From contig NC_091661.1 of the NCBI RefSeq assembly GCF_042453785.1, positions 28,077,501 through 28,141,500 of the forward strand: DNA of 64,000 bases, given 5' to 3'. The stretch comes from Malus domestica. Taxonomy: Eukaryota > Streptophyta > Magnoliopsida > Rosales > Rosaceae. Below the pieces are notes generated by a model. That model was not told the origin of the DNA, did no database searches, and worked only from the letters and a program-made list of their open reading frames with translations. How positions within the stretch are numbered: the stretch's first letter is position 1; every line of letters starts with the position of its first letter. Made by a program: the position numbers and the translations under genes. Positions 1,125 to 59,466 of this stretch are shown in pieces.

Positions 1125-1177
1125 TACGTATTCCAACTTAACAGTTTCACCCTCGATCATTGCATACACAACTCAAG

Positions 1178-4100: not shown

Positions 4101-4351
4101 AGGCGGCTTTGCCTCAGCAAATTACTGAGGTTGCAGATTCACTGCTTCTTCACAAAGGAGGAAACTCGGGCGCAAGCACTAGTACTGCCACTCCCAGTCA
4201 ATGCAGCACGACTATTGAAAAAATCCAAGTGTGTTTGAGTTTAATATTTGGAATTGGAATCGCATGTTCTGTGGAGTCCCCAGGAGACCGAAAGGATATC
4301 AACGAAGCTATATCTGAATTGCTATCTGCAAGGGTTGTTCTTCTTGGATAG
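1178..4351 (+). CDS. LRR receptor-like kinase 1 (LRR-XII, EFR/FLS2/Xa21-like)
   Basis: Two exons, 1178-3860 and 3966-4351, with a GT-AG intron 3861-3965, encode about 1022 residues. A hydrophobic signal peptide comes first, then an LRR N-cap with FCLWRGVTC, about twenty LRRs, a membrane segment (about 651-675) and a kinase domain from about 715 (GVGGFGSVYKG, VAVKVF). The catalytic loop HCDLKPSN has Cys before Asp, so this is a non-RD kinase. The intron splits the APE codons (APEYGMGSE once spliced). An in-frame TTG at 1160 is not needed; ATG 1178 gives a clean signal peptide. Non-RD LRR-XII kinases are known pattern-recognition receptors at the plasma membrane; the ligand here is unknown. The reading frame looks intact. 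DFG is followed by L-V where the second copy has L-A. Confidence 0.93.
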
Positions 4352-4740
4352 AAGATTTTGCCACTATCTTATGGTGCGAGTGTGGCGGTCAACTGTGTTT
4401 CTTCGCATAATGCAAATAGGGGGGCTCCTGTTTAAGGCTGCCTCAGTCCTCACTTTATTAATATTTTTATCTTCTTGTTTTTCAATTTTCGTTTCCTGCC
4501 TCTTGCAGCAGTGAAGTTTTATAGCTGAAGCTGATCAAAAAATCGAAGTGTACACCAATGATGTACATTGTTCTACATAATGTGTAAACCTTTATTTTAG
4601 TCTCAAATTTCAAACACTTAATCCAAGTCGTATGACTAAGATATAAACTTGACAAAGGCGGTAATTGAAGAACCAAACTGGATTCTGAGCATCTACATTT
4701 ACCATCCATGCATGCATTTAGAAAATTTTGACACTTTGAT
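4352..4740. other. 3' flank of receptor kinase 1
   Basis: Non-coding sequence between the stop codon and the receptor-kinase remnant. It probably holds the 3' UTR; I saw no certain polyadenylation signal and no other feature. Confidence 0.5.
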
Positions 4741-4813
4741 CAGTCCAATAATATTACTTAGTGCACACTTTGAATTGTAGAGTACGATATGGGAAGTGAG
4801 GCGTCAACAAATG
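4741..4813 (+). pseudogene. Left half of a dead LRR receptor kinase exon 2
   Basis: Bases 4771-4780 read as an intron end (GAATTGTAG). From 4781 the sequence matches the start of exon 2 in both intact kinases (codons for EY-MGSE, then the Val/Ala-Ser/Thr-Thr-Asn region). It stops at CAACAAATG (4805-4813), where a MITE begins. The rest of the exon resumes at 26659 after the repeated 9-mer. Exon 1 of this copy is absent, so it was already a partial duplicate or later lost that part. Confidence 0.8.
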
Positions 4814-5719
4814 GAGAAATTTTTAGTTATGATAGGAACACGGTTGGTACAACACGTGTTTTTATATAAGTGGTGATAAATTTTATTGTTTAAGTTATTA
4901 ACTTTTTATATTACAACCACCCCCATATTTCCATTTTATTTCTATTTTCCTTGGAACATTATTTAAATTTATCAATTTAATCCCTTATTCTCTTTTAATC
5001 CTAACCCTTGATCTAGATTATGTATTGTTCTTAAACTGCCATGTGGCAGCTCTCTGACTCTCTTCTCTTCCCTCTCTTCCCGAAACACTTTCCAATCTCA
5101 GACACCTCTCTCTTTCACGGGAAACCCTCAAGCATTCTAGAGCTCCGAGAGCTCATCTTTCCTCTTCGAAAAACAAATCAAACCCAACAGTTAACCTCAT
5201 ATCTGGAATCCTTGGAACTTGAGGATCACAGCTATAACCCTGCATGCGTTGGTATAACACCTCTGTGTGTTCTGCCATTGAAGCCGAAAGCTTCAAACCT
5301 CTGAAACTCGAACTCAGGCAAGGCTCACTACTCTATTTCTATTTTTATTGAGCTATTCTCAGTTCAAATGAAGGTTCTAATCAGTGCATGACTTATCTTT
5401 TTGTTTTCCAAAACCCGGCGAGAAAACTCGACGAGTTCCGAGATACACCCAGTCATTCTCGACCACAGTCGAGACTTTATGTGGTATATTTCCATTTCCA
5501 TCATCTCAGCTATTTTTCCTCTTCATTTTGGTACTTGGTTTGGGTTTTAGTTTGCACGTTTGCCGTCGACCAGAACTACAACAGTCCTGGTGTTCTTCCC
5601 CGAGCATACCCAAAGTCACCAGGCCATCAGGCCTTCTTAAACCCACGGGCCTTAGCCTTAATTGAATTAGCCTATTTCCCATTTTGGTTATTTAACATGT
5701 GGACCATGCCCTGCTTGAG

Positions 5720-5925
5720 CCGTGAGTGTGTGTGGAGTGTGCGTGTGTGTGAGTGTGTGTTTGGGCCGTGCCCTGCATGGCCCATGTGTGTGTTTTGGAT
5801 TGTGTGGTGTGTGTGATGTGTTTGTGTAGTGTGTGGGCTGCATGTGTGTGTGCAGGCTTCGTGTATATGCACAGGCTGTGTGTGTGTGTGCACAGTACGT
5901 GTGTGTGAGTGTGGGTTTGGGTTTA
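5720..5925. repeat. TG-rich low-complexity tract
   Basis: Irregular runs of GTGTGT with interspersed GGGCC and CATG motifs. Both strands give open frames made only of repeat-coded His/Thr or Val/Cys residues; these are not genes. It lies in the long solo LTR. Confidence 0.8.
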
Positions 5926-6187
5926 AGCCCAAACCACCTTTTTCACCCTACACCCTTTTAACCTAAAAACCTTAGGATCCTAAAAACCCATTCAACCCAA
6001 ATCCTTTAATTAGTTTTAGTTAAAGTCCAAATCCTTTAGAAAATCCTTTTATTTATTTATTACATTTTTTGTGCTTAGGTGAAGTTGCTAGTGAGGGAAT
6101 TCGTAATCCTTATCCGCACAACTCTAATGCTAAGGAGTATCTGTGAGTGGACCCTTTCTAAAATTTGCATAATTTCATGTTTAATTG

Positions 6188-6708
6188 TGTTGATGCACAA
6201 AATCAGCGAGGACTTTGGTACAACAGAAAGTGTCAGGTTTTGTGACCTTCGCTTGGTTGCTTGGTTGCTTCAGTCACTAGTGAGGATAAGTACGTAAATG
6301 AATAGAGACAGAGAAGCAAACACAGGATGTACGTGGTTCACCCAGATTGGCTACGTCCACGGAGTAGAGGAGTTCTTATTAGTAGTGAAGGGCTTACACA
6401 AGTACAAAGGATCAAGCTCTCAATTTAGTGAGTTCTTGTGAATGATTTAACACAAAATGGCATTAGGAAATATTGTGGGGGAATGACCCCTATTTATAGA
6501 AAAACTTGTAGCTTTGTCACATTGACATGTGTCATGTTATGATTGGTTCTTGATGTTGACACGTGCTGCGCTCTGATTGGCTTCTAATCTTGACACGTGT
6601 CGAGTAGTGATTGGCCTCCTGGTCGGAGGGGAACTCTTCTGGGTCCTTGACAGTATAGCGTTGGCCGGTGCTCGGTAGTTTCGGGATTGGTCAAGTATGG
6701 TACAAACA
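6188..6708 (-). repeat. 3' LTR of the Tat element
   Basis: 521 bp, same length and by eye the same sequence as the copy at 19022-19542. The polypurine tract lies just inside at about 6709-6722 (read on the minus strand as a purine-rich run ending GGGGAGCAC). Confidence 0.92.
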
Positions 6709-8599
6709 GTGCTCCCCTAAGTTCCCGAGTGAGGGAAACTCCTCGGTTGGGGACTTGCAAGATCCAATCCCTTGAGTAATCACGAAACTTCTAAGTACCG
6801 AAGTGTGGTCTGATCTTCATCTGCCCTTCTCTGGAAGTACCTTTCCTCCATCCGGGAATGGTGTATTTAGCTGATGTTGACGCACAAGGTAATGTATCAA
6901 TTTCACTTGAAGCTTAGTTGTAGTTTCGGGCTTAGTCAAGTGTGATACAAACCCTATAGTAGGAGTCCCCCAAGTCGCCGAGCTAGGAGATCTGCCGAAA
7001 GAGGTGACAGACAAGGTAAGCAGTCAAACTTCCAAGTAAGCAACCCAGGATCAGAGGTTTGACGTCGGCTTCCGGTTGATTGTTCTCATTCTCCTTGTCT
7101 CTCATTCAACTGCCAGGATAAGGAGAAGCAAATGGATAAGAGATGATATGAGATACTTTTGCTTTTGAAGAAGTAACTTTCCACAGGCTTATTCTTGAAC
7201 TGTGCTGGAGGGTGTTCTGGTGCCCTTCAGAGTATAAGGCCGACTCAAAAATTTGAGGGTCAAAACAAGTCCATCAAATCTAGAGTACGTTCGACCTTGA
7301 TGATATGGGATACTTTTGCTGTTGACGGAATAATGAATGTGGTATGGAAAGGTGTCGTGCTGTAGTGATCTGTTTCAGCTCACCGTTGAACCTTCTGCTT
7401 CAATCTTTTGCATGGCAGAAGTGGTGTGCAACCTTTGCATTTAAATGGTCCTTCAGAACATTCCTTCATAGTGACTCATCCACGCTTGGCAGCTTCAGTG
7501 TAAAGAGCCAATATCTGATCAACTGTCATGAGGTATTTGCCGGTGGAATTCGTGACCTTGACAGCAGTTGAGGATGAGTACTCGAGAGCAATGCTAAGTA
7601 AGCAACCAGGCAAAGGCTCCAGGCAGTCAGTTCCAAATTGGAGGTTTGATTTCAGGTTCCGACTGACTGCTCTCTTTCTCCTTGTCCTGCAGGTGTGGAC
7701 AAGGACAAAGACAAAGACAGGGAGAAAGCATGATATGGGATACTCTTGCTTTCGACCCTGATGATATGAGATACTCTTGTTCTTGGTGTGGCTTATTTGC
7801 TGAGGTATTATCGGGGGGAAATAAAGCTGAGTATTTCGAGAGGTTATGTTGAGGGTGCCTTTTCGAATGCGAGAAAGGGTTGAGCATTTTTGCAGGTTTG
7901 CCTATCCGTTGAGGAGGGAGGTCAATGTATATAGGGATTTCCCAATAACAAGTAGTAATGCTATTCCTTTACCCTTCTTGGTCACAGCAATGTAGTGGGA
8001 GCTGCCAGCTTCACGTGTTTTAATTTTGTCAGAGCACTTTGAAAAAGTGGTATGTGGTATCTGGAAAGCTGATATTACGTGTGGAGATTACAGACAAGCT
8101 TTATCTAAGGAAATCTGGCTCTCGAAGTTCTGAGAGTTGTGCCTCTTCGGTTTTCGAACAAGCAATCCCGTCGAGTATCTGACTCTAGAGATTCGGAAAG
8201 CGGTGCTACTCCGGTTTTTGAGAAAGTAATTATGTTGGGAGTCTTTTCTCGAATGTGAGTAAAGGTTGGACGTTCTTGCCAACCTGTCTTGCCGGAAAAC
8301 ACGGAGGTCGACACACATAGGGACTTTCCAGTTGTCAAGCAGTGGTGCTGTTCCTTTACCCTTATGGGTAATAGTAGGGTAGCTGGAACTTTGAAATTCT
8401 CGTGCCTAAACTTTGTCAGAAATCTTTGACAAAGTTATATGTGGTACCCGAGGAGTTGATGGTGCATATGGAGAGCGGTGATTGATCAGTAAGATTCACG
8501 TGCTTTCTATTTCACCAGAAATCTTCGACAGAGTGCCCGTAATTTCCGCAAAGCTGATTGTGCATGTGACAGGTGCTGACGAGGCTGCAAAAGCAGGTG

Positions 8600-8812
8600 C
8601 TTCTTCGATTTCTGAGATCGGCCCTCGTGGTCTCTGAGCAGCCCAGCTTTTGAGAAAGCATTCGCCTCTTCGATTTCTGAGATCGGCCCTCGTGGTCTCT
8701 GAGCAGCCCAGCTTTTGAGAAAGCAAACGCCTCTTCGATTTCTGAGATCGGCCCTCGTGGTCTCTGAGCAGCCCAGCTTTTGAGAAAGCAAACGCCTCTT
8801 CGATTTCTGAAG
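8600..8812. repeat. 65-bp tandem repeat, about 3.3 copies
   Basis: The unit starts CCTCTTCGATTTCTGAG and includes GGCCCTCGTGGTCTCTGAGC; it repeats at 65-bp spacing with very few differences. It lies just upstream of the TATA-like box of the antisense ORF and so sits in its promoter region. Confidence 0.88.
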
Positions 8813-8830
8813 CTCCGTCGAGTGCAGATT

Positions 8831-8836
8831 TTTATA
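8831..8836 (+). promoter_or_regulatory. TATA-like box of the antisense ORF
   Basis: TTTATA followed by GAGG, about 115 bases before the ATG at 8950, on the strand opposite to the element's own transcript. Confidence 0.4.
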
Positions 8837-8949
8837 GAGGCTGGCATTAAGTTCCACATCACACTTGAATCTCTACCAGTAGAAGCTCATTTCTTGCACT
8901 TCTAAGATCTTGATTTGTCTGACCTCTTCCTTCTTCAACACATTTGAAA

Positions 8950-9624
8950 ATGTCTGGACCCTCCGACCGTCGTTTTGACTTGAACCTTGGAGAAGAGACA
9001 GCCACGCCTTCTCCAGACAACATATGGCGCCCATCCTTCATATCCCCTACTGGTCCTCTTACCGTTGGGGATTCTGTGATGAAGAATGATATGACCGCTG
9101 CAGTGGTGGCCAGGAACCTTCTCACTCCCAAAGATAATAGACTACTTTCCAAACGGTCTGATGAGTTGGCTGTTAAGGACTCTCTGGCTCTTAGTGTTCA
9201 GTGTGCAGGTTCTGTGTCTAATATGGCCCAACGCCTATTTGCTAGAACCCGCCAAGTTGAATCATTGGCTGCTGAAGTGATGAGTCTCAAACAGGAGATT
9301 AGAGGGCTCAAGCATGAGAATAAGCAGTTGCACCGGCTCGCCCATGACTATGCTACAAACATGAAGAGGAAGCTTGACCAGATGAAGGAATCTGATGGTA
9401 AGGTTTTACTTGATCATCAGCGGTTTGTGGGTTTGTTCCAAAGGCATTTATTGCCTTCGTCCTCTAGGGTTGTACCTGGTAATGATGCTTCAAATGATGA
9501 ACCTCCAATGCCTCCTCCTTCTGGGGTTTTGTCAAGTACTGAGGCTCCGGATAACCACCCTCCGGTGCTTTCTCTTTCTGGGGCTCTACCGACTGCTGAG
9601 ACTTCCCCTAAGCAACCTTTGTGA
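8950..9624 (+). CDS. Antisense ORF of the Tat element, coiled-coil protein
   Basis: 224 codons on the strand opposite to gag-pol. The start is ATG 8950; the in-frame TTG two codons earlier is not needed. The N-terminal part is polar (SGPSDRRFDLNLGEE). Residues near 95-145 form a likely coiled coil (RQVESLAAEVMSLKQEIRGL, then HENKQLHRL). The C-terminal 60 residues are Pro/Ser-rich with two similar PP-SG-L-STE/TAE blocks. I know of no enzymatic domain. Antisense ORFs in the region between pol and the 3' LTR are known from several Tat-group elements, with unknown function. A TATA-like box precedes it and AATAAA (9692-9697) follows it, so it may be an independent transcription unit. Confidence 0.7.
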   Translation: MSGPSDRRFDLNLGEETATPSPDNIWRPSFISPTGPLTVGDSVMKNDMTAAVVARNLLTPKDNRLLSKRSDELAVKDSLALSVQCAGSVSNMAQRLFARTRQVESLAAEVMSLKQEIRGLKHENKQLHRLAHDYATNMKRKLDQMKESDGKVLLDHQRFVGLFQRHLLPSSSRVVPGNDASNDEPPMPPPSGVLSSTEAPDNHPPVLSLSGALPTAETSPKQPL

Positions 9625-9691
9625 AGGCTCCCTTTTGTTTGTTTATTTTGACTCATGTATATGTACATATTTGTGGCTTATCGAAAATATT

Positions 9692-9697
9692 AATAAA
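9692..9697 (+). terminator. Polyadenylation signal of the antisense ORF
   Basis: AATAAA 68 bases after the TGA at 9624, in an AT-rich 3' region. Confidence 0.45.
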
Positions 9698-9825
9698 TAA
9701 GCTTTGCTTCATTTCAACATATTGTGTTAAATACACCAAAGCCTTCTTCATAAAGTTCTTTGAATTTTTGCTTTTGTTGAAACCTGTATTGTTGAAGCTT
9801 TGTGAGTGAAGCATGTAGTTTGAGG

Positions 9826-9990
9826 TAGTGTTCCCTTAATTTCCCGAGTGAGGAAAACTTCTCGGTTGGAGACTTGAAAAATCCAAGTCACTGAGTAGTC
9901 ACGAACTTTTGAGTACCAAGGCGTAGTAGCATATGGTGGGAGTCCCCCAAGTCTCTAGTCGAGGGAGTTGACGAATGAGGTGTCTTGCTA
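9826..9990. repeat. Second copy of PPT-adjacent sequence
   Basis: It resembles 6709-6800 plus 6955-7016: both carry GTG(C/T)TCCC, TTCCCGAGTGAGG-AAACT, CTCGGTTGG-GACTTG and AGTCCCCCAAGT in the same order. The antisense ORF region therefore lies between two direct copies of sequence normally next to the 3' LTR. Confidence 0.65.
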
Positions 9991-10129
9991 ATAGTCCATG
10001 TCGTAAGTACCAAAACTTCATTCTTTTGTTTTCTAAGTGGTAGCCCCGGACTTTTTCTTCATAGATTTTGTTTATGAAGGTTGCTAGGCCCGAATAAGTG
10101 GAATTGCAGAAGGTGTAACCGTTGGTGCA

Positions 10130-10229
10130 TTAACATCATAATGGAAGCATCACAATGATGGAAGCATCACAATGATGAAAGCATCATAATGATGAAAACA
10201 CCATAATGATGAAACATCATAATGATGTT
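10130..10229. repeat. Short tandem repeat, unit near 16-17 bp
   Basis: About six units of the type GAAGCATCA(T/C)AATGAT with small length variation. Confidence 0.8.
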
Positions 10230-10311
10230 TCTTTGGTGGAATTGTTTTTCATTTCCCCTAACAACCGGAATTGTTTTTCAACATAACACCATCATCTGTA
10301 GGTCGAATCAC

Positions 10312-11070
10312 AAAGTTGTCTTCATGAAAGTTGTTCGTTAATTCCTTAACTACAACATATCCAAATTGGAGAGCCATCGGAGCAGTACAACTCCAGAAAT
10401 CCAGGTATGATGAGTGACTGTTTATCATTTGTCTGTCAACCCGTCAGATTTGTTGTGAGCTTTGAAACTCTATTTTCTCTTGCTCAGATCAGCATGCTTT
10501 CTTCATTGAAGTTGTTCCTCAGCTTGTGAACTACAACATATCCAAATTTGAGATCCCTCGGAGCTGTATAACTCAAGAAACTCAGGTATGATGAATGACT
10601 GGTTATTATTTTTCTGTCAACCCGTCAGATTTGTTGTGAGCTTCGAAACTCCATTTTCTCTTGTTCAGATCGGTATGCTTTCTTCATTGAAGTTGTTCCT
10701 CAGCTTGTGAACTACAACATATCCAAATTTGAGATCCCTCGGAGCTGTATAACTCAAGAAACTCAGGTATGATGAATGACTGGTTATTATTTTTCTGTCA
10801 ACCCGTCAGATTTGTTGTGAGCTTCGAAACTCCATTTTCTCTTGTTCAGATCGGTATGCTTTCTTCATTGAAGTTGTTCCTCAGCTTGTGAACTACAACA
10901 TATCCAAATTTGAGATCCCTCGGAGCTGTATAACTCAAGAAATTCAGGTATGATGAATGACTGGTTATTATTTGTCTGTCAACCCGTCAGATTTGTTGTG
11001 AGCTTCGAAACTCCATTTTCTCTTGTTCAGATCGGTATGCTTTCTTCATTGAAGTTGTTCCTCATCGACC
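10312..11070. repeat. 181-bp tandem repeat, about four copies
   Basis: The marker CTTCATTGAAGTTGTTCCTC recurs at 10501, 10682, 10863 and 11044, exactly 181 bp apart, with a more diverged first copy at about 10320. The inner copies are nearly identical, the outer ones more diverged, as expected for unequal exchange or slippage. Confidence 0.92.
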
Positions 11071-11639
11071 CTTTCATAACATATCAAAAATTCAGGATGA
11101 ACTAACGGTTAAATATTTCCAGATCTTCGAAACATCACAACAGCTTCGAAATCTGCAAGAAGCCGACTATCATGTTTGGAGCTTCAACACTTTAATTTCC
11201 GTCGCTCAAACAGAAATGGTTCCTTCTTGAAAGTTGTTCATATGCTCAAGAACTATAGGGTGTCCAAAATTCAGCTCCATTGGAGAAGAGCAGAGGTTGC
11301 AGAAATTTGATAGATGAAAGGAGGCGGAAGAGGGAGAGAGAGAAAAAGTCTCCTGGGTTGGATTTCTATTTTGGGGCAGATTCCAATTTTTGTAGCACCT
11401 TCATTATTGATGAATTGCTTGTACTTTTGTCCATTATGAAATTTGGGACTTTGGCTTGTTGTTGGATCTATTATAATATGTTTGGGAACATATATAAGTG
11501 AATAAATAAGAAGGAAAATTGTGGGCCCTTGTGGGTGTAAAACAAAAAATGTTTATGTTTACCCAAGTGTTTTTGTACAAGTTCAAGGGCATCTTGGGTT
11601 TTGTGAACAAAATTTGTTTATTTGGAGCAAGGTTTTGTG

Positions 11640-12646
11640 TTGAAGCTTTGTAGGTGAAGCTTTGGTGTTGAAGCTTTGTGGGTGAAGCTTTGGAGGTGAA
11701 GCTTTTCGGGTGAAGCTTGTTGGGTGAAGCTTTTTAGGTGAAGCTTTGTGGGTGAAGCTTTTTAGGTGAAGCTTTTCGGGTGAAGCTTTTTGGGTGAAGC
11801 TTTTTAGGTGAAGCTTTTCGGGTGAAGCTTTTTGGGTGAAGCTTTGATGGTGAAGCTTTTTGGGTGAAGCTTTTTAGGTGAAGCTTTGTGGGTGAAGCTT
11901 TGTGGGTGAAGCTTTGATGGTGAAAGTATGTAGAGGGAGCTTTCTAGGTGAAGATTTTTTAGGTGAAGCTTTGTAGGTGAAGCTTTGTTAAGTGAAGCTT
12001 TTCGGGTGAAGCTTTTTAGGTGAAGCTTTGTGGGTGAAGCTTTTTAGGTGAAGCTTTGTGGGTGAAGCTTTGGAGGTGAAGCTTTTCGGGTGAAGCTTTG
12101 GAGGTGAAGCTTTTCGGGTGAAGCTTGTTGGGTGAAGCTTTTTAGGTGAAGCTTTGTGGGTGAAGCTTTTTAGGTGAAGCTTTTCGGGTGAAGCTTTTTG
12201 GGTGAAGCTTTTTAGGTGAAGCTTTTCGGGTGAAGCTTTTTGGGTGAAGCTTTTTAGGTGAAGCTTTGATGGTGAAGCTTTTTGGGTGAAGCTTTTTAGG
12301 TGAAGCTTTTTGGGTGAAGCTTTTTAGGTGAAGCTTTGATGGTGAAGCTTTTTGGGTGAAGCTTTTTAGGTGAAGCTTTGTGGGTGAAGCTTTGTGGGTG
12401 AAGCTTTGATGGTGAAAGTATGTAGAGGGAGCTTTCTAGGTGAAGATTTTTTAGGTGAAGCTTTGTAGGTGAAGCTTTGTTAAGTGAAGCTTTTCGGGTG
12501 AAGCTTTTTAGGTGAAGCTTTGTGGGTGAAGCTTTTTAGGTGAAGCTTTGTGGGTGAAGCTTTGGAGGTGAAGCTTTTCGGGTGAAGCTTTTTGGGTGAA
12601 GCTTTGGAGGTGAAGCTTTTCGGGTGAAGCTTTTTGGATGAAGCTG
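11640..12646. repeat. GTGAAGCTTT minisatellite, 14-15 bp units, about 1 kb
   Basis: About 65-70 units of GGTGAAGCTTTNN with a HindIII site (AAGCTT) in nearly every unit. A variant block with GTATGTAGAGGGAGC occurs at 11936 and again at 12418, giving a 482-bp higher-order period. A run of about 26 T follows at 12647-12672. ORFs read through here are repeat-coded and not genes. Confidence 0.93.
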
Positions 12647-12884
12647 TTTTTTTTTTTTTTTTTTTTTTTTTTGGCGCTTGACACGGTCTTCATTTGCTTG
12701 TTTTGTAGTGACTGTGGAAGACGGATTGCTTTCTGATTGAGAAGGGTTCCGGCATCGCTTGCTATGAATGTAAAAGAGTGAGGGGTGAGTTGGCTAAATT
12801 ACCTCTTTATTGAATTCATTGCCAAATGACCTTCATTACATAGGATGCCAAACGGCTATAGCTCAACACTTGTACATCGTGAGT

Positions 12885-15800
12885 CTATTTGTAGTAGTAC
12901 TTCAAGTGATCAGCGTTCCATGGATGGCCAAGGGTCTTGCCATCGGAGCTTCTAAGTGTGTAAGAGCCAGGGCGACTGATGCCAATGACTTCATACGGTC
13001 CATCCCAGTTTGGACTAAGTGTGCCTTCACTCGGGACTCTGTCGCAGAGTAATCTTTTCTTTAAGACCCAGTCTCCTATTTTGAAAGAACGAGGCTTGAC
13101 CCTAGAGTCATAATAGTTGGAGATGCGCTGCTTGTAGGCGACATTCCTCAAGTGAGCTTGGTTTCTGTGTTCCTCGACTAAATCCAAGTTGAGGGTGAGT
13201 TGTTTGTCATTTTCACTTTGAATGTAGTTCTGGACTCGGAATGTTGCTTGCTCGAGCTCAACAGGGACAACCGCCTCTGTGCCAAAGGCAAGTGAGAATG
13301 GAGTTTCTCCTGTTGAAGTCCGATATGAAGTGCGATATGACCAAAGAACTTGGGGTACAAATTCTGGCCAACAGCCTTTAGCTTTGTCCAAGCTGGTTTT
13401 CAAAGTGCGCTTGATTATTTTGTTGATGGCCTCAACTTGTCCATTAGACTGGGGATGAGCTGGAGAGGCAAAGCATAAGTTGATGTTGAACTTAGAGCAG
13501 AACAACCTGAACTTCTTGTTGTCGAACTGTCGCCCATTGTCAGTGACTATCGCATTGGGAATGCCGAATCTACAAAGGATGTTCTTCCACACGAAGTCTT
13601 CTATCTTTGCCTCAGTAATGGTTGCCAAGGGTTCTACTTCGGCCCACTTTGTGAAGTAGTCCACTGCAACGACTGCGTAACAGACTTTGCCCTTCCCTGC
13701 CGGCATTGGGCCGATCAAATCAAGTCCCCACTGGGCGAAGGGCCAAGGGCTGATCATAGGAGTAAGAGGCTCTGGAGGGGAATGAGGAATAGCCGCATAT
13801 CGTTGACATTTGTCACATTAGCGGGATACTTTGATGGCATCCTGGTGGAGTGTTGGCCAGTAATATCCTTGGCGAAAAGTCTTGTGTGCTAGGGACCGAG
13901 ATCCAGCATGATCTCCACAGACTCCCTCATGTATTTCCCGAAGGACGATTTCCGCCTCGGCAGGCGTAAGACACCTTAAGTATGGCAGGCTAAAACCTCG
14001 CTTATAGAGTTGATCATTGATGATCAGGTAGCGGGTAGACTTGTATCGAATTTGCTTAGCCTGGACTTTATCATTTGGGAGGGTGCCATGAGCAAGGAAA
14101 TTATAGATCGGGGTGATCCAACTATCCCCCTGTTGTAAGTTGCACACTTCTGCGGCCATGGTGCTTGGTGTTGCCAACAGTTCGACATGAATTTTTCTTC
14201 CAATCTTGTCTTCCACAGCCGAGGCGAGGCGAGCCAGGGCGTCTGCATGACTGTTTGCCGCTCGAGGAACTTGGGTGATCTGGTAGTGGAAGTGCTTGAG
14301 CAAAAGTTGTGTTTGCGCAAGATATGCTGCCATGGAGCTGTCCTTAGCATCAAAGTTGTTGGTAACCTGGTTGACCACCAATTGGGAGTCACTGAAAATA
14401 TCAATTTGTTTAACCCCGAGGTGTTTGGCCAAACGTAATCCTGCTAGAAGGGCTTCATACTCGGCCTCATTATTTGATGCCTTGAATTTGAAACGAAGAG
14501 CATACTCCATTGCTACTTTGTCGGGTGTAGTCAAGACTAGTCCCGCTCCACAGCCCTGTTGGTTGGATGAGCCATCAACATACAGACTCCATGCTGGGGT
14601 TGTTGGTTCTATCTTCTGAGCTTCCGGGGGTAATGAAGCCACTGCTTCAGGTGTAGAAGCGATGTCAACCGGATATGTGAAGTCGGCAATGAAGTCTGCC
14701 ACTGCTTGGCCCTTCTCAGCTGGCTTTGGTTGGTAGGAGATGTCAAACTCACCCAACGCTATTGCCCATTTGATCATTCGCCCTGAAGTGTCAGGACTTT
14801 GGAGTATCTGTCGAAGAGGATAATTGGTAAGCACGATGATGGAGTGCGCTTGGAAGTAAGGGCGGAGTTTTCGAGCAGACATGACCAATGCCAGAGCCAA
14901 TTTCTCAATGTTAGAGTACCGTGTCTCCGCATCTTGTAAGGCTTTGCTAGCGTAGTAGACAGGTCGCTCAATATTCCCATCCTTTCGGATGAGAACGGAA
15001 CTTACGGCTGAAGCTGATACCGATAGGTAGATAATGAGAATGTCTCCTACCTCGGGCTTGGAGAGTAGAGGGGCTTTACTCATGTACTCCTTGAGGTTTT
15101 TGAATGCCTCGGCACATTCATCAGTCCATGTAATGTACTTCCTACTTCCCTTAAGTGCTTTAAAAAAGGGAGCACATTTGTCTGTGGCCTTAGAAATGAA
15201 CCTGGTTAAGGCTGTCACCTTGCCAGTAAGGCTCTGGATGTCCTTTGAAGTTACCGGTTCCTTCATGTCGAGGATTGCTTTGATCTTCTCGGGATTAGCT
15301 TCAATGCCTCGTTGGCTAATCATGAAACCTAAGAATTTGCCAGAGCCTACGCCGAAGGCACATTTGTTGGGGTTTAACCTCATTCGATACCTCTTCAAAA
15401 TAGTGAAAGTTTCAGATAGGTTGGTGATGTGTTGGTCAGCATGTTTGCTCTTGACTAACATATCATCAACGTAAACTTCCATGCTCTTCCCAATCTGCTC
15501 GGCGAACATTGAGTTGACTAGTCTCTGATAAGTCGCTCCTGCATTCTTTAGGCCGAAAGGCATGACTTTATAGCAGTATAGTCCTCTGTCGGTAGTGAAG
15601 GCTGTGTGTTCTTGATCCGAAGGGTTCATGAGGATTTGGTTGTATCCTGAGTAAGCATCCATGAAGCTCAGGAGTTCACACCCGGCCGTAGAGTCTATAA
15701 GTCTGTCAATAAGAGGAAGAGGGAAGCTATCTTTCGGACACCCTTTGTTTAGGTCGGTGTAGTCAACACACATTCTCCACAAGACCTTTTGAAGCAAAAG

Positions 15801-18800: not shown

Positions 18801-19020
18801 CAACTCATCGACTTTAGCTTGAAGAAGAACTCGTTTTCCTTCCTTCTTTCGTTGTTTCGCACTATGTGCAAGGGGGGTGTCATTCTGTGTGCTATGGCTT
18901 CCTTCGCTTCCCATGTTGGAGAGGGATGCCTGATCAAAAGAAAGTGTACGAATGATAGAAACCAGCTTGACACAGCTGAAGAGAGTAGGAATAAGTGTCG
19001 TTTCCCACAGACGGCGCCAA
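12885..19020 (-). mobile_element. gag-pol coding region of the Tat element (fossil)
   Basis: Parts in order on the minus strand: N-terminal coiled coil (about 18700-18900), Ty3 gag core with GALNWYCRL (about 17590-18010), Cys/His knuckle-like stretch (about 17060-17100), aspartic protease with LVDTGAS (about 16660-16700), reverse transcriptase with MPFGLKNAGA and YVDD (about 15300-15900), retroviral RNase H (about 14750-15050), a second archaeal-type RNase H with LYVDGSSN and IFSDSQLVVNQV (about 14210-14600), then integrase with a zinc-binding head and a DDE core (DLIGPMP, VTDNGRQF, HPQSNGQVE; about 12900-13960). The paired RNase H domains place it in the Tat lineage. It reads almost whole, with about one break. 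Confidence 0.9.
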
Positions 19021-19021
19021 A
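19003..19021 (-). other. Primer-binding site region of the Tat element
   Basis: On the minus strand TGGCGCCGTCTGTGGGAA follows the 5' LTR directly. It matches the tRNA-Asp type site used by many Tat and Athila elements. The 4.1-kb element at 21695 has nearly the same leader. Confidence 0.75.
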
Positions 19022-19542
19022 TGTTGATGCACAAAATCAGCGAGGACTTTGGTACAACAGAAAGTGTCAGGTTTTGTGACCTTCGCTTGGTTGCTTGGTT
19101 GCTTCAGTCACTAGTGAGGATAAGTACGTAAATGAATAGAGACAGAGAAGCAAACACAGGATGTACGTGGTTCACCCAGATTGGCTACGTCCACGGAGTA
19201 GAGGAGTTCTTATTAGTAGTGAAGGGCTTACACAAGTACAAAGGATCAAGCTCTCAATTTAGTGAGTTCTTGTGAATGATTTAACACAAAATGGCATTAG
19301 GAAATATTGTGGGGGAATGACCCCTATTTATAGAAAAACTTGTAGCTTTGTCACATTGACATGTGTCATGTTATGATTGGTTCTTGATGTTGACACGTGC
19401 TGCGCTCTGATTGGCTTCTAATCTTGACACGTGTCGAGTAGTGATTGGCCTCCTGGTCGGAGGGGAACTCTTCTGGGTCCTTGACAGTATAGCGTTGGCC
19501 GGTGCTCGGTAGTTTCGGGATTGGTCAAGTATGGTACAAACA
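19022..19542 (-). repeat. 5' LTR of the Tat element
   Basis: 521 bp, partner of 6188-6708. It holds a TATTTATAG motif near 19325-19333 that reads as CTATAAATA on the minus strand, a plausible TATA box for the element's transcript. Confidence 0.92.
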
Positions 19543-19718
19543 AATTGTATAAATGAAATGCATGCCTTACAAGTTATTAACTGATCTTTATGTTAAGTAT
19601 GATTATGAAATATGTTGTTTATCGTCTTGTTTTGGTGAAGAATTTATTATTAGCCTATACTGAGCTATATTTTAAAATATCGTATTTTTCTATAAAAACC
19701 ATGAACTGGTAGACTATC

Positions 19719-21644
19719 TGATATGAGCATATTTATGCGACTTAGTATGTTTGTTTTCGTGCATTTATGTTCTTAGTTCTTAGTTATGTTAGTAGTTTAA
19801 GCCATTTTTGTGTGTTTATAGGTTCTATGGGCCAAGGATGCAAGAAGATGCATTTTGGAGCATTTTTGGGCTAAGATTGGATGGTGCAAACATGGAGACA
19901 TGAGGATGGACGTTTTGGGCTTTTGTGTGTGCAAGTGTGTGTGTGTAATTGCAAGGATAAACACATGCAAAGAAGCCCACATGCAAACTCAAGGCAAGAG
20001 AGGGAGAAAACACATGCAAAGAAGCCCACATGCAAAGTGAAGACAAAACTCATGGCAAAGGTGAAGGAATTGTGTGTGTTTTGTGATTGAAATGATGAAG
20101 CATGTGTGTGTAAATGTAAAGGGGAAAACATGGCAGCAAACACATGGCAAAGAAAGCAAACACATGGCAAAGAGAAGAACATTGAAGCATACACATACAA
20201 AACTCATGGCAAAGGTGAAGGAATTGTGTGTGTTTTGTGGTTGAAATGATGAAGCATGTGTGTGTTAATGTAAAGGGAAAAACATGGCAGAAAATGTGTG
20301 TGTTTTGTGGTTGAAATGATGAAGCATGTGTGTGTAAATGTAAAGGGGAAACATGCCAACACACACCCACACAAGCTCACATGCAAAGGAAATGGAGTGG
20401 TCCTATCTCAAGCCTATAAATACCACCTTCCATATTCATCAAAGTCATAACAGATTTTCTCTCCAAATTTAGCCAAAAACCACCCCTAGCCACACCACCC
20501 ATCAATCCTAAACCTTTCCATACCATTCCCCATCCTTTCTACACCATAAAAACCACCCAAAACCGTCCAAAACCTCTAGTGCCGCTGCTTGCAAGGAAGG
20601 AAAGAGAAGGAACATCTTGTGCCGTGCCTATGCCCAAACCTTGGGAGTGTTGGAGCGTTTCTAGGTGTTTTCTATCTTTGTTTTTAATGTCTAAATTTAT
20701 GCATCTTTGCTTTGTAAGTATGAGGAACTAAACCCCCCTTTAGCTAGGGGGTGATTCGAAACTATGTTTATGCTTGCAATATGAATTGATTATCTTTGGT
20801 TGGAATTTCATAAGTTGTGGATTCAATTTGTTTAACCGTTTGATTGATAACTTATTTATGTATGTTTATTGAGAGTGCACGCTTAATTTTCATGCATAAA
20901 TATGACGCTAGAATATAAGTGAGTTTCACCTAATCGTTATGAACTTATATTCACAAGTAGTGGAGGTTGCTTATAAACAATCGCGTTAAATGAATTCTTG
21001 GCACTAGTTTCATGCTTTTCATAGTAACGAATGCCTCGTCAACACTTATAGTTTTCATGATGCTTACTGATCTTTGATTGTATCTTTATTGTGCTTTTCA
21101 CGTAAAGGACTTTTGGAGAATGTTGTGAATTGCGTTGCGCAAACCCATCCAATTCATTAACTTAAGGAGAACTTGACGGTTAATTTAAGCGGACCTAATT
21201 AACCTAGGGTGTTGAGTTTCATAATTTATCGAAAGACCAACTGAGAATCGATCTTGTATTGCAAGTGTGACATGTGTGGAGAAGAACCCCTTAAGCTATT
21301 CCATCATCCATATTTTTCATTGCATTCATATTTACATTTTGCCCTTAATTATAATCTGTCCATTTAATTTAATCTCGTAAAAAACAACTCAATTTCCCCC
21401 CCCATATTTTGTTAAAGTCTTAGTCGTTCAAATCTATCTTATTTTATGCTTTTAAGTATTTGGAGTCTTTTGAACTTGTTTTGAGTCTTTTGGTTTGTCT
21501 TAGTGTTTTAAAAGTTAGTTTTATTTATTTGAGTCAAGTGTTTAGCACCCCTAGTTAATCCCCGGTTAGAACGATCCCTACTTACATCATTACTACAATT
21601 GTCACAAATAGGGTTTAATTTGTGTGCTTATATATTTCGCATCA
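19719..21644 (+). mobile_element. Solo LTR, 1.9 kb
   Basis: It begins TGATATGAGCATAT, ends TATTTCGCATCA and is flanked by CTATC at 19714-19718 and 21645-21649. No coding domain is present. A TATA box (TATAAATA, 20415-20422) lies about 40% of the way in, as in an LTR promoter. The family is unknown to me; the length and the GAACGATCCCTACTTAC-type end suggest a long-LTR Gypsy group. Confidence 0.8.
19960..20370. repeat. Imperfect tandem repeats in the solo LTR
   Basis: AACTCATGGCAAAGGTGAAG recurs at about 20047 and 20204 (period 157 bp), with further part-copies of the GTGTGTTTTGTG-TTGAAATG segment. It lies upstream of the LTR's TATA box, so it may be repeated promoter sequence. Confidence 0.75.
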
Positions 21645-21694
21645 CTATCTGATGGATGACGATAGGATGCTAGAACATGTTTTAGAAACCCCTC

Positions 21695-22053
21695 TGTTTA
21701 TACCATATTTAGGGCCTCGTATTTAGATCTCGTACAAATACTCAGGGGACTTAAATGTAATTATGTGATAAAGGAAGGGGCAAATATGTAATAAGTGAGG
21801 AGTCCTTATTCTATAAAAGGACCCCTAACCTTCACAATTAGGGGAGGCCAATTCCTAAGGCTCCTCACCCTTTCAACGCTCTCATTCTCAGAGCTCTCTC
21901 TCTCCCTCACTTCTCAGAGAAATACAATACAATCAGTGTGGACGTAGCCCAAACCTTGGGGTGAACCACGATACATCTTGTGTTATTTACATTTCTTGCG
22001 GATTCACGGTCGGATTTACGTTGTACCAAGACTTCCAATTTTGTGCATCAACA
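21695..22053 (+). repeat. 5' LTR of the non-autonomous element
   Basis: 359 bp, begins TGTTTATACC and ends GTGCATCAACA. TTCTATAAAAGGACC at about 21811-21825 is a likely TATA box. Its R-U5 part shares GTGGACGTAGCC and GGTGAACCACG with the Tat LTR. Confidence 0.88.
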
Positions 22054-23337
22054 TTTGGCGCCGTTTGTGGGAAACGACACAAAAAGCTATGTCGGTTCTC
22101 TTTCATTTTTTCATCTCACCACCGTGAAACCTCACCACACTCCACTTGAATCTGCAAAAATCTGCAAAAACCCATTTTCCATCCCACCACCGCATCTTTT
22201 CATAATTTGCGAATATTTAAATGGCTAGGAATTGTCTGTGGCTTGACACTCACAATACACATTTTTCGAAAACCCAACTCTCATGTCTCCGTCTCTAAAA
22301 TAAACACACAAATTTGAAGTTCTTTCTTGCTCGTTTGAGTTCCGAACGCAGAGAAAGAGAGTTGCCATGGGTAGGCCTCCGAGCAACGGAGGCCCTGCCT
22401 TCCGCTTCGTCCAGTCTAAGGTGTAAAGACAAAGAAATGCTTTGGTTGGAAAGCACATAGATGGTTTATGGATACAAGAAGTAGCAGTAGTAGTGGCATG
22501 TTCATCATCAGATCTGCAATCTGCAAAGTGTCGAATCTTTACCAGCTCGAGGAGAAAGCAAAATCTTTTCCAGCTCTGACTTTATGGATGGCTTTCTCCT
22601 TTTGCTCTCCGTACATGCAAAGCGCCGAATCTTTGCCAGCTCGATCTTTTCCCTCTCTCCTCGGGTCCCTAAGAGAGAGCAACCTTGCTGCTCCGCTGTT
22701 ATTTTTGAAATAGAAAGTGGCATCTCTTCCACAAACTCCAACAATCCACTAGCACCGCCGCCGCCAGTTCCCTCTCACCCCGGTACCCAGAGATGATTAT
22801 GGCGACAATCGACCTAAGAAACCAAAACTCCTCTCTCTTTCTGCAACTTTTGCTTTTTGAATTTTATTCTATTAAAGAAAACAGCAATCTCGACCGCGTC
22901 CTCTCCTAAGACCTCGTCGAGATCGTCCCTCTCGTCCAATCCCTCATCGATCGGAAAAGTTGCACAAAAGGGGGGGAATGCAGCTTAATCCATCCCGACA
23001 AGGTAGAAGAGAGATCCGTGAGACAATGGCTCAAGCAAAAACGCTGGCAGCCTCGATGCTGACCCAGCCACCGACCCAGCCATCGTCACCTGCAAAGCTG
23101 ACGCCACAAACCCATCTGCCGTCACCTGCAAAGCTGACGCCGTCGCTCTCTGCGTCAGCTGCGACACCAACCTCCACACGGCTAACCCACTCACGCAATC
23201 AACTACATGTCGCCGGCCCCCCACCGCAAGATCTTGATTCACTTGCAGGCTGTGATGAAAAAGAAAAAACAAACAATTGACTGAAAATTGGTCCTGCTGC
23301 TGCTGATTTGGGTTAATTTGCTGAGTTTGTCAATAGC

Positions 23338-23577
23338 TTGATCTCCGAGGTTGCCGATGTTCCCTTTATGGATGCTCTTGTTGCAGCTTGGCTTCCAAGA
23401 ACGGAAAGGCAGGGCGTAGCTGATGTTTTATTTGGTGACTATGGCTTCACGAGCAAGCTTTCTCGAACCTGGTTCAAAACCGTTGATCAGCTACCGATGA
23501 ATGTAGGAGATGCACATTATGACCCTCTCTTCCCCTTTGGATATGGCCTCACTACAACACCGGCCAATTCCAACTAG
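23338..23577 (+). pseudogene. Captured fragment of a GH3 beta-glucosidase (glucan exohydrolase) gene
   Basis: An open stretch encodes [37 protein letters not shown] and [14 protein letters not shown], the C-terminal part of the second domain in plant GH3 beta-D-glucan exohydrolases. Only about 80 residues remain, with no catalytic domain. It lies inside the non-autonomous LTR element, so it is a retro-captured piece and not a working gene. Usual family members glycine at WLPG and EGQG are Arg here, consistent with decay. Confidence 0.8.
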
Positions 23578-23720
23578 TTATAAAATCAAGTGCGAAGTTT
23601 ATGGGCGGCGGCCCTCATCGTTTTGGTTGCTGCCTCTACACTCAATTTCCAGATGTTGGGGATTATTGACAAGTGTGGAAATTCCAGTCTCTCTCCGCCT
23701 GCATGTTTATGGAGCGTAGG

Positions 23721-23759
23721 CTGCAGGTTTTCGATAGCCGTGGCAATCCCACCGTCGAG
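23721..23759 (+). pseudogene. Short enolase-like fragment
   Basis: 13 codons read LQVFDSRGNPTVE, the conserved N-terminal signature of enolase (FDSRGNPTVEV). It is too short to be certain, but the match is exact over the diagnostic core. It is a second apparent capture in the same element, 140 bp from the GH3 piece. Confidence 0.5.
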
Positions 23760-24387
23760 AGAAAACCTTCAGCAGATGCTGATGGAGATACCAAGAAAAG
23801 CAAAAGATGAGATCTTGAACCGTTGCCAATGATGAAAGTAGAGATACAGATAAGCTATCTTACAACAATACCATTATTATTCCACTTTGGCGTTGTCTGC
23901 CATCTGCCAAAAGAGAAAAGAGGTGAGCCCTATTAGGAGCAGGGAGATCAAGAAAAGCAGAAAAGCAGTGGGGAACAAAGCAGAAAAGAGAAAGCAAAAG
24001 TGAGGAATAAACACCCCACCAGAATTATGTGATTTACTTTCCTTATTTTTGAATGATGTAATTTATTTTTATTATCTTTCGGAGACATCTATATAAACCC
24101 CATAAGAGGGTAATATGTATAAACCCCATCAGAAAAAAGAAAAAAAAAAAGGGCAAAGCCCAAAACAAATGGGCTAGCATGTTGTGGAGGGCGAAGGCCC
24201 ATAAGCCCAAAATAGCACCAACCAGGTTATCAAAAGTACACCCAGTACTCCAAAATTATTTGACAACCTGCCGCTATTACCACCAACCAAGTGATGAAAT
24301 GTACAACCTGTACTCTAGTATCATTTGGCAACTAGCCATTCATGCCACCAACCAGGTGATCAAAAGTACGCCAAGTACTTCAAATTA

Positions 24388-24600
24388 TACATGAGCATTA
24401 CTCATGTCATTCATACATAAAACATTCATGAGCATCACTCATAACAATCATACATAAACATTCATGAGCATCATTCATGTCAACATTCATGAGCATCACT
24501 CATGTTAACATTCATGAGCATCACTCATGACAACATCCATGAACATCACTCATGTCAATCAACATAAACATTCATGAGCATCACTCATGTCAATCAGCTT
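24388..24600. repeat. CATTCATGAGCATCACTCATG tandem array
   Basis: About seven units of 25-40 bp built on ATTCATGAGCATCACTCAT. It is followed at 24597-24700 by AAGCTTCA-rich units resembling the Tat minisatellite in the opposite orientation. Confidence 0.8.
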
Positions 24601-24879
24601 CAAAAGCTTCATTTACAGAGCTTTAGCTTCAAAAGCGTCATTTAAAGAGCTCTAGCTTCAAAGCTTCACTTGCAAAGCTTCACCTACAAAGCTTCAGTGC
24701 AAGGTATACAAATACCGCCTCCGAACAAACGCCACTTCGGCCCATACATGGATTCAATTTGAAGTCTCCAGCGAACAGACTCTATTAATCGAAGACTTGG
24801 GGGACTACATTATGTACCGTATATTGGGCCTCAACTGGGCCTCATAAAAAATACTTGGGGGACTTAGCCCATTATTTAT

Positions 24880-25200
24880 GTACTGAGGAGCGAGCTCTTA
24901 TTCTATAAAATGGACTTCCTCACTTTCACTAGAGAGCACACATCACTTATGTATTGAAGAGCAAGCCCTTAGTTTATAAAAGGGACTCTCACTTTCATTA
25001 GAGAGTATCGCCGCTTACTGAGCAACCGCCTCGCGGCGAGCATCAACTCTAACCCATCACTTATGTTTTGAGGAGCGATCCCTTATTCTATAAAAGGGAC
25101 TCCCTCACCATCATTAGAAAGCATCAACTCTAGCCCATCATTTATGTATTGAGGAAAGAGCCCTTATTCTATAAAAGGGACTCCCTCACCTTCAACACCA
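24880..25200 (+). repeat. Array of four TATA-bearing LTR-like units
   Basis: Each unit has TTATGTA/TTT-TGA-GA, then CCTTATTCTATAAAA-GGACT (or a near form) and a CTCAC-TTCA tail. The TATAAAA motifs are at about 24904, 24973, 25089 and 25170. All resemble the promoter part of this element's own LTR. Confidence 0.75.
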
Positions 25201-25406
25201 CAAGCCAAGCCAACCAAGACAACATAAGCCACGAGCCGAACAGCCTCGCAACATATGTTACTTCTAGTTGAGCATCACTTCAGATTGAGCACCGCCTCAT
25301 ACCAAGTACTAGTTCAAGACGACATCTAGTTACTTCGGCCCACACATGGACTAAATTTCAAGTCTCCAGCCAAAAGACTCTCTTGACTGAAGACTTTAGG
25401 GATTAC

Positions 25407-25765
25407 TGTTTATACCATATTTAGGGCCTCGTATTTAGATCTCGTACAAATACTCAGGGGACTTAAATGTAATTATGTGATAAAGGAAGGGGCAAATATG
25501 TAATAAGTGAGGAGTCCTTATTCTATAAAAGGACCCATCACCCTCACAATTAGGAGAGACCAATTCCTAAAGCTCCTCACCCTCTCAACACTCTCACTCT
25601 CAGAGCTCTCTTTCTCCCTCACTTCTCAGAGAAATACAATACAATTAGTGCGGACGTAGCCCAAACATTGGGGTGAACCACGATACATCTTGCGTTATTT
25701 ACATTTCTTGCGGATTCACGGTCGGATTTACGTTATAACAAGACCTCCAATTTTGTGCATCAACA
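25407..25765 (+). repeat. 3' LTR of the non-autonomous element
   Basis: 359 bp, partner of 21695-22053, with about 17 differences by eye. Confidence 0.88.
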
Positions 25766-26658
25766 CCCTCTTTATAGTATAGACGATGGATGACTTTATA
25801 CTATGAAGTGGTTATTTATGAGAGGCGTAACTATTTGTGTGTACCTAGTGGACACTATGCTGCCTGGGGCGAGGATTTGGTGTTGGCAGTTAAGCCAGGA
25901 GAAATAATCCCTAGCTACAGGTTGAGGGACACGAAGCAGGCATTGAGCCGGGAGTTGGTAATCTCTGGCTACGGGCACAGAGACCATGGTGCTGGCATAG
26001 GGTCGGGAGTTATATTCATTCAGTGATTTTTCTAGCAGTACACCGATCTTACGAGACGATCTATGAGACGTTTACTATTTTGATTTCCGCGATGTTATTC
26101 CGCTATATGACTTTTGAGATATTTTTGGCATGCTAGGATTTTTATTAAATTCATCACTTATTATGCTAGTAGTTTTCTTTATATAAGTTGTGGGGGTTAT
26201 TATCTTGATAACTGTTTTATTATTATTGTATATATGAACTTGGTCCACTCACATTTGTTTTGCGCCCCCATTCAGGTCTTAGAAACGAGAACTACGACAC
26301 AACGCATGAGGCATTCCCCTACCAGTAGTAATCTATCACTCACTTGTGTGATATCCTGTAATGATCGTTCCTTTTGTGATCTTGTTTTAGAATGTGTTAT
26401 GTGCACTCTAGATACTTTCTTAAACTTTGTTTATTACTTCTAGATTCTAATGTTTATTCATGAATATTTCCTCCTAATCATTACTCTTGTAATCAATAAA
26501 TGGCTTTCGTCACCCTCAGGTGTCGGTCAGTACGTGCCTATCCGGGTATTCAGAGAATATCAGGATCGGGATGTGTCATTTTAACACACATATCCCACCA
26601 TTTATATAGCGACACGTGGTATACCACTCCGTGTGACGGTCACACTGAAAAATCTCTC

Positions 26659-26752
26659 CAACAAATAGGGATGTCTACAGCTTTTGGTATTTTCTCTTGT
26701 TAGTGATGTTGTAATTCAACTGCAATCCATCAGGAGCCTTCTTCTTGGCTAG
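26659..26752 (+). pseudogene. Right half of the dead LRR receptor kinase exon 2
   Basis: After the repeated 9-mer the sequence continues as GGGATGTCTACAGC, the next codons of exon 2 in both intact kinases. One extra T shifts the frame in the CTTT(T)GG run. Most of the exon is then missing: the text jumps from CTCTTGTTAG to the last 45 bases (GTGATGTTGTAA...CTTCTTGG-TAG). About 100 bp of the gene's 3' flank follows, recognisable as GCTATAAAT-AA-GGTGA. Confidence 0.8.
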
Positions 26753-26759
26753 AAGCTTT

Positions 26760-27810
26760 TTCTTATGTGCTTCCTCTTTTGATTGTTGCTATAAATTAAG
26801 GGTGACAAATTGCAAATAAGGATCACCGATGAGATGCGTAGTGTGTAAACTGTAAAGCAAAGTCTTGTAAAATATATGGCACCTGAAATTTTAGTCTGAT
26901 CACAGTTACCTATCACATAACCATTGTTCTTTTCAACATATTCCAACTATCTTCGCTGAATTTTCAACAGCGTTTACTTGGGAGCGGCTGGGAAGCAACT
27001 CAGATGATCCCGTGACCTACTGGTTCGTGACCCTCTGGTGACCACAACCGGTTCGACAAAATGCTTGAACGGGCTGTCCAAACTAGCTGCGGCTTGCAGC
27101 GTTTTTAAATAAAGGTATATAAAAAAATAAAACCCACAAACCCAGACAACCAGGAGGCCAAGATATCCCCTAAACATTCAAATCCCTATTAATATTTTGT
27201 CTCCTAAGTTGTACAGTCACATCTACATACCATCCCTAACCCACCAAATTTATGATAATATAATTTATTTGGCACAAATAACATCACCGAAAATCGTAAT
27301 TAACTTGGCAAAAACTACGTGCTACTTACTAGATAGGGGCGTAGGGACAAGGAAGAAAACTATAAACACAACTGAGTATGTATAGGTTGGTATAAAGATG
27401 ACGATAATGATAATGAACATTAACGTAATAAGGTTACACGTCTTTTTGGTCGAAACAAAACAATATATACATATTTAAATGTTAAAATAAAATTCTTTCA
27501 CCTTCTTCTCCTACTTCTCTCCTACTTTCCCGTTTTCACTCACATGCATGCATAGCATAGGATTGCATACGTAAGAATAACAAGTTGATAAGGTGAAGAA
27601 TGACAAGTTTAACAAGTTGATAAGGTGAAGAATGACAAGTTGCTAAAGTGGGGTGTGATAAGCAAAACAACGGTAGCCGTCCTGTTGGAAGCCAGCAAAT
27701 TGTATTGGAAAAACTACTCAACTTTGCAGCTGATCGTATTTGAATTTTGTTTAAAAGTATAATATTTTATATGCAGTTAACATCATCTTCCTTTATATGA
27801 TCCTATCCTT
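26760..27810. other. Spacer upstream of receptor kinase 2
   Basis: Non-coding. A 32-bp tandem duplication (ACAAGTTGATAAGGTGAAGA) lies at 27580-27643. The GC-richer patch at 26970-27110 may be an old repeat; I do not recognise it. Confidence 0.5.
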
Positions 27811-27824: not shown

Positions 27825-27872
27825 ACTTCTTCATACCGGAACTGAAACTTGCCAATTCAAAACTCATACGAA

Positions 27873-30800: not shown

Positions 30801-31032
30801 GAATTTTGGTGGACGAGTTACAGAAGTTGCAGATTCGATACTTGTTCAAGAAGGTATCACTACCAATACCACCCCCAACCAATTCAGCGCAAGATCTGAA
30901 AATGTGGAGGAGTGCTTAAGTTTGATCCTTGGAATTGGAGTCTCTTGTTCTGCTGAATCCCCAAGAGACCGAAAAGAGATAAGTGATGTTGTAAACGAGT
31001 TGCAATCTATCAGGGCTATCCTTCTTGGGTAG
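27873..31032 (+). CDS. LRR receptor-like kinase 2 (LRR-XII, EFR/FLS2/Xa21-like)
   Basis: Exons 27873-30567 and 30662-31032 with a GT-AG intron at the same codon as in receptor kinase 1; about 1021 residues. Order: signal peptide (MGILVTKFIL...), N-cap with FCQWHGVTC, about twenty LRRs, membrane segment near 652-675, kinase from about 715 (GVGSFGSVYKG, VAVKVF), HCDLKPSN near 843 (non-RD), DFGLARF, and APEYGMGSE across the splice. The upstream in-frame TTG at 27849 is not needed. It is clearly a tandem paralogue of the first kinase, with close similarity in every domain and the most change in the LRRs. Likely a cell-surface immune receptor of the LRR-XII class; ligand unknown. Confidence 0.94.
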
Positions 31033-38393: not shown

Positions 38394-38563
38394 GAGAAAT
38401 TTTTAGTTGTGATGCAAATACGGGTGGTACATATTGTGTTTTTATGTAAGTGGTGAGAAATTTTATTTTTTAAGTTATTAACTTTTTAAAACACATATCT
38501 CACCATTTATATAACGATATGTAGTGTACCATCCTATGTGATGATCACACTAAAAAATCTCTT
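38394..38563. mobile_element. Complete MULE-like MITE, 170 bp
   Basis: Inverted ends GAGAAATTTTTAGTTGTGAT and CACACTAAAAAATCTCTT with 9-bp duplication GTTAGTTAG at 38385-38393 and 38564-38572. It is the reference copy for the split MITE at 4814/26658 and for the copies at 42729 and 59298. Confidence 0.88.
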
Positions 38564-42728: not shown

Positions 42729-42895
42729 GAGGATAGACTTTTCGATGTGATCGGAATATGAAGTGGTACACCACATATCATTATAAAAGTGAGATATAAG
42801 TATTAAAAAGTTAATAACTTAAAAAATAAAATTTTCCATCAATTACATAAAAACACAATATATCATCCTTTTACTGTCACAATAAAACATTCTTC
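42729..42895. mobile_element. Diverged MULE-like MITE copy
   Basis: Same family as 38394-38563 in the opposite orientation (GATGTGATCGG..., AAGTTAATAACTTAAAA, CATAAAAACACAATAT). The flanking duplication is eroded. Confidence 0.65.
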
Positions 42896-59297: not shown

Positions 59298-59466
59298 GAG
59301 ATATTTTTTTTAATGTGATCAGTATACGGAGTGGTTGTCATTATACAAATTATGAAATATGTATGTTAAAATGTTAATAACTTAAAATGTAAAATTTTCC
59401 ACCACTTCCATAAAAACATATGATGTGATGTACCATCTACGTTCCGTCGCAAAAAAAAAATTTCTC
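59298..59466. mobile_element. MULE-like MITE, 169 bp, near the kinase gene promoter
   Basis: Same family as 38394-38563, opposite orientation (GAGATATTTTTTTTAATGTG ... AAATTTCTC), flanked by CCACCGTAC (59289-59297) and CCACCGCAC (59467-59475). It begins 118 bases upstream of the kinase ATG. Confidence 0.83.

Follow-up and report, generated by a model that had tools for sequence, protein, structure and literature searches.

Between two LRR receptor-kinase genes, a decayed tandem duplicate of a gene of this kind almost certainly carries a stack of nested transposons, comprising a short Mutator-type MITE in the remnant of exon 2, a long LTR in the MITE, and three further LTR insertions in the long LTR. 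A sequence-only reading of this DNA had claimed that the five junction pairs of such a stack are visible, and all five were read in the sequence at the places that it gave. We analysed a window of 64,000 bp (C1:28,077,501-28,141,500) in a 651-Mb genome of 19 contigs, and all controls for empty insertion sites are paralogous copies in this same genome.

The kinase exon-2 remnant

The stack is bordered on the left by kinase A (ORFs 1160-3877 and 3974-4351) and on the right by kinase C (ORFs 27849-30650 and 30640-31032). Pfam matches to LRR and Pkinase domains in the long ORF of each (1160-3874 and 27849-30647) identify both neighbours as LRR receptor-kinase genes, and the two are 73% identical across 3.1 kb; insertions totalling about 22 kb now separate the members of this tandem kinase cluster. 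By its similarity to these genes, the host of the stack is a small LRR-kinase pseudogene remnant, a decayed tandem duplicate lying between its two larger relatives. Its left part (4769-4813, plus strand, 45 bp) consists of the final intron bases and the start of exon 2, ends in the left target copy of the MITE, and matches the window kinases at 3954-3996 (88%) and 30657-30694 (89%), as well as kinase loci on C11, C7, C10, C13, and C16. The right part (26659-26765, plus strand, about 107 bp) holds the other target copy, about 50 bp of exon, an internal deletion and about 60 bp around the stop codon; 26659-26710 is 88% identical to 30686-30734 of kinase C, and 26702-26765 is 77% identical to 30982-31045 around its stop codon, and by these offsets the deletion amounts to about 256 bp. 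The right end at 26765 agrees with the 26760 proposed earlier, and in some C11 loci the match extends to 26772. No kinase similarity that could represent exon 1 was found from 4769 back to 4359 (410 bp), and a search of the flanks 4359-4768 and 26773-27700 that skipped common words yielded nothing further at E 0.001; a weaker match of 48 bp leads to 31126-31173 (E 0.006).

When the exon is joined over the duplicated 9 bp, no interruption is seen in any of the 17 kinase loci compared (14 distinct places) or in the two kinases of the window; the comparison drew on the 12 best of 41 matches listed and left aside the general kinase loci L001-L008. Three pairs of loci (L035/L065, L036/L063, and L042/L066) share one place each, and L037, L040, L043, and L056 were excluded as the window itself or as repeats of a given place. 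The claim that exon 2 of a third kinase is split is supported by the uninterrupted paralogues, but it was overstated, as the split exon is a fragment with a deletion and without an exon 1. An empty site of the whole locus was also sought on C7, next to the kinase-A paralogue that matches best; the 8 kb analysed there (L068) align with kinase A up to window position 4363 and from there with other kinase pieces and stretches matching about 31.4-40 kb, and so give no empty site.

The small size of the two kinase pieces, the missing exon 1 and the internal deletion could cast doubt on their origin from one gene copy, in which case they would flank the stack through rearrangement or an assembly joining. 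However, the pieces abut precisely in the 9-bp duplication, with order and strand preserved, the alignment of the rejoined exon continues past the site in every kinase locus compared, and the bases beyond the MITE site agree with kinase C, making this explanation most improbable. A different question is whether the insertion of the MITE, and not prior decay, inactivated a working third kinase, with the other losses following later. The MITE does lie inside a coding exon of which both sides are still recognisable, whereas exon 1 is absent from the 410 bp to the left, the deletion of about 256 bp is present, and whether these two losses preceded or followed the MITE cannot be told from the sequence; we regard inactivation by the MITE as unlikely, and the kinase copy was probably non-functional already before the MITE arrived. 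With a small pseudogene remnant as its host, the locus does not demonstrate that the stack inactivated a working gene.

The Mutator-type MITE

The insertion of a 170-bp MITE in the exon, as previously proposed, was borne out, with 9-bp target copies that differ by one mismatch. The left copy, CAACAAATG, lies at 4805-4813, and the right copy, CAACAAATA, at 26659-26667, so that 8 of 9 bases agree; kinase C reads CAACAAATGGGGATG at this site, which is the G form, and the left copy therefore retains the older base. The left part of the MITE (4814-4908) includes the left TTTTA copy, and the right part (26579-26658) starts with the right one. Most genome copies start within 4812-4815 and end a few bases from 26658, as mapped with 40 of 1973 left and 40 of 1842 right candidates scored, and counting the first base as part of the duplication gives the length of 170 bp. 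The two termini of the element are imperfect inverted repeats of each other across about 65-70 bp.

Target duplications of 9 bp are a criterion for Mutator-type elements. Among 21 full-length copies of the family, once partial matches and L031, a place counted twice, had been removed, the 9-bp duplication was exact in eight, had one mismatch in five and two in three, and differed at six to eight positions in the remaining five; thus, 13 of the 21 show at most one mismatch, and eight are without a clean duplication. By its shortness, terminal inverted repeats and 9-bp target duplication the element is classified as a Mutator-type MITE. A target duplication of 8 bp was also considered and dropped, as 8 of the 21 copies agree across all nine bases, the lengths being compared informally.

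The site of the TTTTA insertion (MITE base 95) is spanned by all 21 full-length copies, partly by construction since these were chosen as full-length matches, and seven partial copies (L002, L010, L012, L015, L017, and those at window positions 42856 and 59467) also pass it. In L026, the outer MITE copy is broken by another MITE about five bases from this site. Together with the junctions, the MITE copies that pass the site bear out the earlier claim of a long LTR inserted into the MITE with a TTTTA duplication. The string that remains when this insertion is removed had been said to match the MITE at 38394; it does match, except that one base of 20 differs.

Other members or parts of this MITE family are found in the window at 38394-38562, 42732-42856, and 59306-59467, of which the first is full length and is flanked by GTTAGTTAG as its 9-bp target copies. 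Two family members lie close together at L019, L012, L025, and L026, and in L026 one is apparently inside the other. On C7, L068:2706-3263 contains the same MITE between parts matching window 31421-31625 and 31650-31776, while the window itself (31421-31776) has no MITE there, which likely represents an insertion difference between paralogous regions.

The long LTR in the MITE

The TTTTA insertion occupies 4909-26578, with target copies at 4904-4908 and 26579-26583, and measures 2303 bp when the three inserts and their extra target copies are subtracted. Its target copies are exact, and it starts with TA and ends with CA. Among its relatives, TG was found at 9 of 10 readable left ends, L052 starting with TA like the window copy, and CA at 8 of 10 right ends read. 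Relatives covering nearly the whole left 1279 bp reach 82% identity, and shorter pieces reach 95%. Directly after the LTR, one copy only (L048) carries TTGGTATCAGAGC (cited also as TGGTATCAGAGC), which we take to be a tRNA-iMet-type primer site, and L048 would therefore be the 5' LTR of a longer element. At the window copy neither an internal region nor a second LTR was found, and since it lacks an internal region we interpret the TTTTA insertion as a solo LTR.

Could the 2303-bp sequence be a repeat of another type? The TA start, the missing second LTR and the four of nine copies with no clear target copies (L045, L047, L048, and L049) would fit such a view, but the TG and CA termini prevail among its relatives, and where both ends were read, in nine copies, exact 5-bp target copies occur in three (L050, L052, and L053), with one mismatch in L051 and a 6-bp match in L054. 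As L048 in addition carries the primer-site string, a non-LTR identity is hardly credible, and we continue to treat the sequence as a long LTR.

All three of the inner insertion sites are crossed in 11 of 11 long-LTR copies given, which make up the empty-site set, with 38 further matches lying outside the comparison; in L052, the alignment at the AATTG site starts only at probe base 62 and is preceded by a separate piece.

Three insertions in the long LTR

The long LTR had been said to contain three LTR elements, with AATTG, CTATC and CCCTC duplications. The three insertions are there, and the description is refined in two points: the long LTR itself is a solo LTR, and so is the CTATC insertion.

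The largest of them spans 13,355 bp (6188-19542, minus strand), with AATTG at 6183-6187 and 19543-19547, and its LTRs (6188-6708 and 19022-19542) are identical at 521 of 521 positions. On the minus strand, Pfam matches, in pieces, follow the order gag, reverse transcriptase, RNase H, integrase, by which the element is assigned to the gypsy (Ty3) LTR retrotransposons; no protease was matched in Pfam at E 0.001. As the main reading frame ends before the integrase ORF, this copy is not one open unit. LTR copies of the family are 99-100% identical (2778 candidates, 40 of them scored, including both from the window), which points to recent activity. Two traits only, a TGGCGCCG-type primer site and a long 3' region, both of which we take to be characteristic of the Tat lineage, suggest that the element belongs there. 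Between the integrase and the 3' LTR, an ORF of 226 aa (8944-9624) runs antisense to pol and has no Pfam match; additional antisense ORFs occur in some Tat-type elements. The 3' region also contains tandem arrays at 10285-11127 and about 11517-12600, with units of 181 bp and 14 bp, and the 14-bp array resembles 24602-24696 of the CCCTC element on the opposite strand.

The CTATC insertion (19719-21644, 1926 bp) is flanked by CTATC at 19714-19718 and 21645-21649; its orientation, given as plus, is uncertain and comes from the TG...CA ends only. In this family, paired copies lie about 8.2 kb apart elsewhere, and the two nearest full-length relatives of the LTR, L070 and L071, have their own target copies (TACCA and GTCCT, respectively) and K values of 0.0115 and 0.0126, the latter for L070. 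Judged from its TG...CA ends, its 5-bp target copies and the paired copies elsewhere, the insertion is a solo LTR.

At 21695-25765 (4071 bp, plus strand), with CCCTC at 21690-21694 and 25766-25770, lies an element whose LTRs (21695-22053 and 25407-25765) are identical at 342 of 359 positions (K 0.049). The one ORF scanned of its two of at least 90 aa gave no Pfam match to a coding domain, and the element may have been mobilised by the proteins of a relative. The AATTG element and this one have the same LTR end, GTGCATCAACA, and the same primer-site region, which reads TTTGGCGCCGT(C) or TTTGGCGCCGT(T).

Order and age of the events

The order of events that had been read from this sequence, namely kinase duplication, MITE, long LTR and then the three others, is supported by the junctions and the paralogous empty sites. 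As the sequence shows, the exon-2 remnant of a kinase paralogue lies between the two larger kinase genes, and the 170-bp Mutator-type MITE inserted into this remnant with a 9-bp target duplication. Subsequently, an LTR retrotransposon, now a solo LTR, entered the MITE with duplication of TTTTA, followed by the three LTR insertions (AATTG, CTATC, and CCCTC) within a 216-bp stretch of the long LTR, one of which is now also a solo LTR. Each solo LTR is presumably what LTR-LTR recombination has left of its element. The idea that nesting also orders the three inner insertions was rejected, as they lie side by side.

As the sequence-only reading had proposed, LTR divergence was compared for the two elements that keep both LTRs, and with 0 differences in 521 positions against 17 in 359, the AATTG element appears younger than the CCCTC element. 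With mutation rates, per site and year, of 1.3e-8 and 4e-9, the CCCTC element has a rough age of 1.9 or 6.1 million years (95% range 1.1-3.0 or 3.5-9.8, respectively). An equally rough estimate for the AATTG element is at most 0.27 or 0.89 million years, from which we infer a difference of roughly one to several million years. Gene conversion can also yield identical LTRs. The CTATC solo LTR has no LTR pair and hence no direct date.

Comparison with known nested insertions

The locus is a textbook case of nested transposons, which are nothing unusual in plant genomes, and changes no principle. It may serve as a clear illustration, since one sequence suffices to place most events in relative order, and its five junction pairs are usable as presence/absence markers among relatives. 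Jedlicka et al. (2019; PMC6911290) describe nesting of LTR elements in plants as common and non-random, and the present stack shares with the cases described there the insertion of LTR elements into older ones with short target duplications, but here the container lies inside a MITE inside a gene remnant, and the target is an LTR, which according to these authors is not a common target. LTR retrotransposons within Mutator-like elements are described for maize and rice by Zhao and Jiang (2014; PMC3903597); LTR retrotransposons in a Mutator-type DNA element are common to both situations, whereas the container here is a 170-bp MITE and not a transposase-bearing element. In Rosaceae, Mutator-like MITEs are reported to predominate, with an average of 45% (PMC12550479), and the present MITE likewise has inverted ends and a 9-bp duplication; exons are reported there as the rarest target, with few exceptions, in contrast to the exon hit here, which possibly belonged to a dead gene. 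For the Malus genomes named in a study on Maleae (PMC11197308), the reported ratio of solo LTRs to intact elements is 7.43-8.98 or 11.32-11.46 to one; two of the four LTR insertions here are likewise solo LTRs, with no notable difference from that study.

Only one feature is slightly unusual, namely the clustering of three insertions in 216 of the 2303 bp of an LTR. The chance that three uniformly placed sites lie within 216 bp of 2303 bp is about 0.025, a value computed after seeing the data, and we consider it very unlikely that the three independent LTR-element insertions mark this stretch as a preferred landing site and not as a chance cluster.
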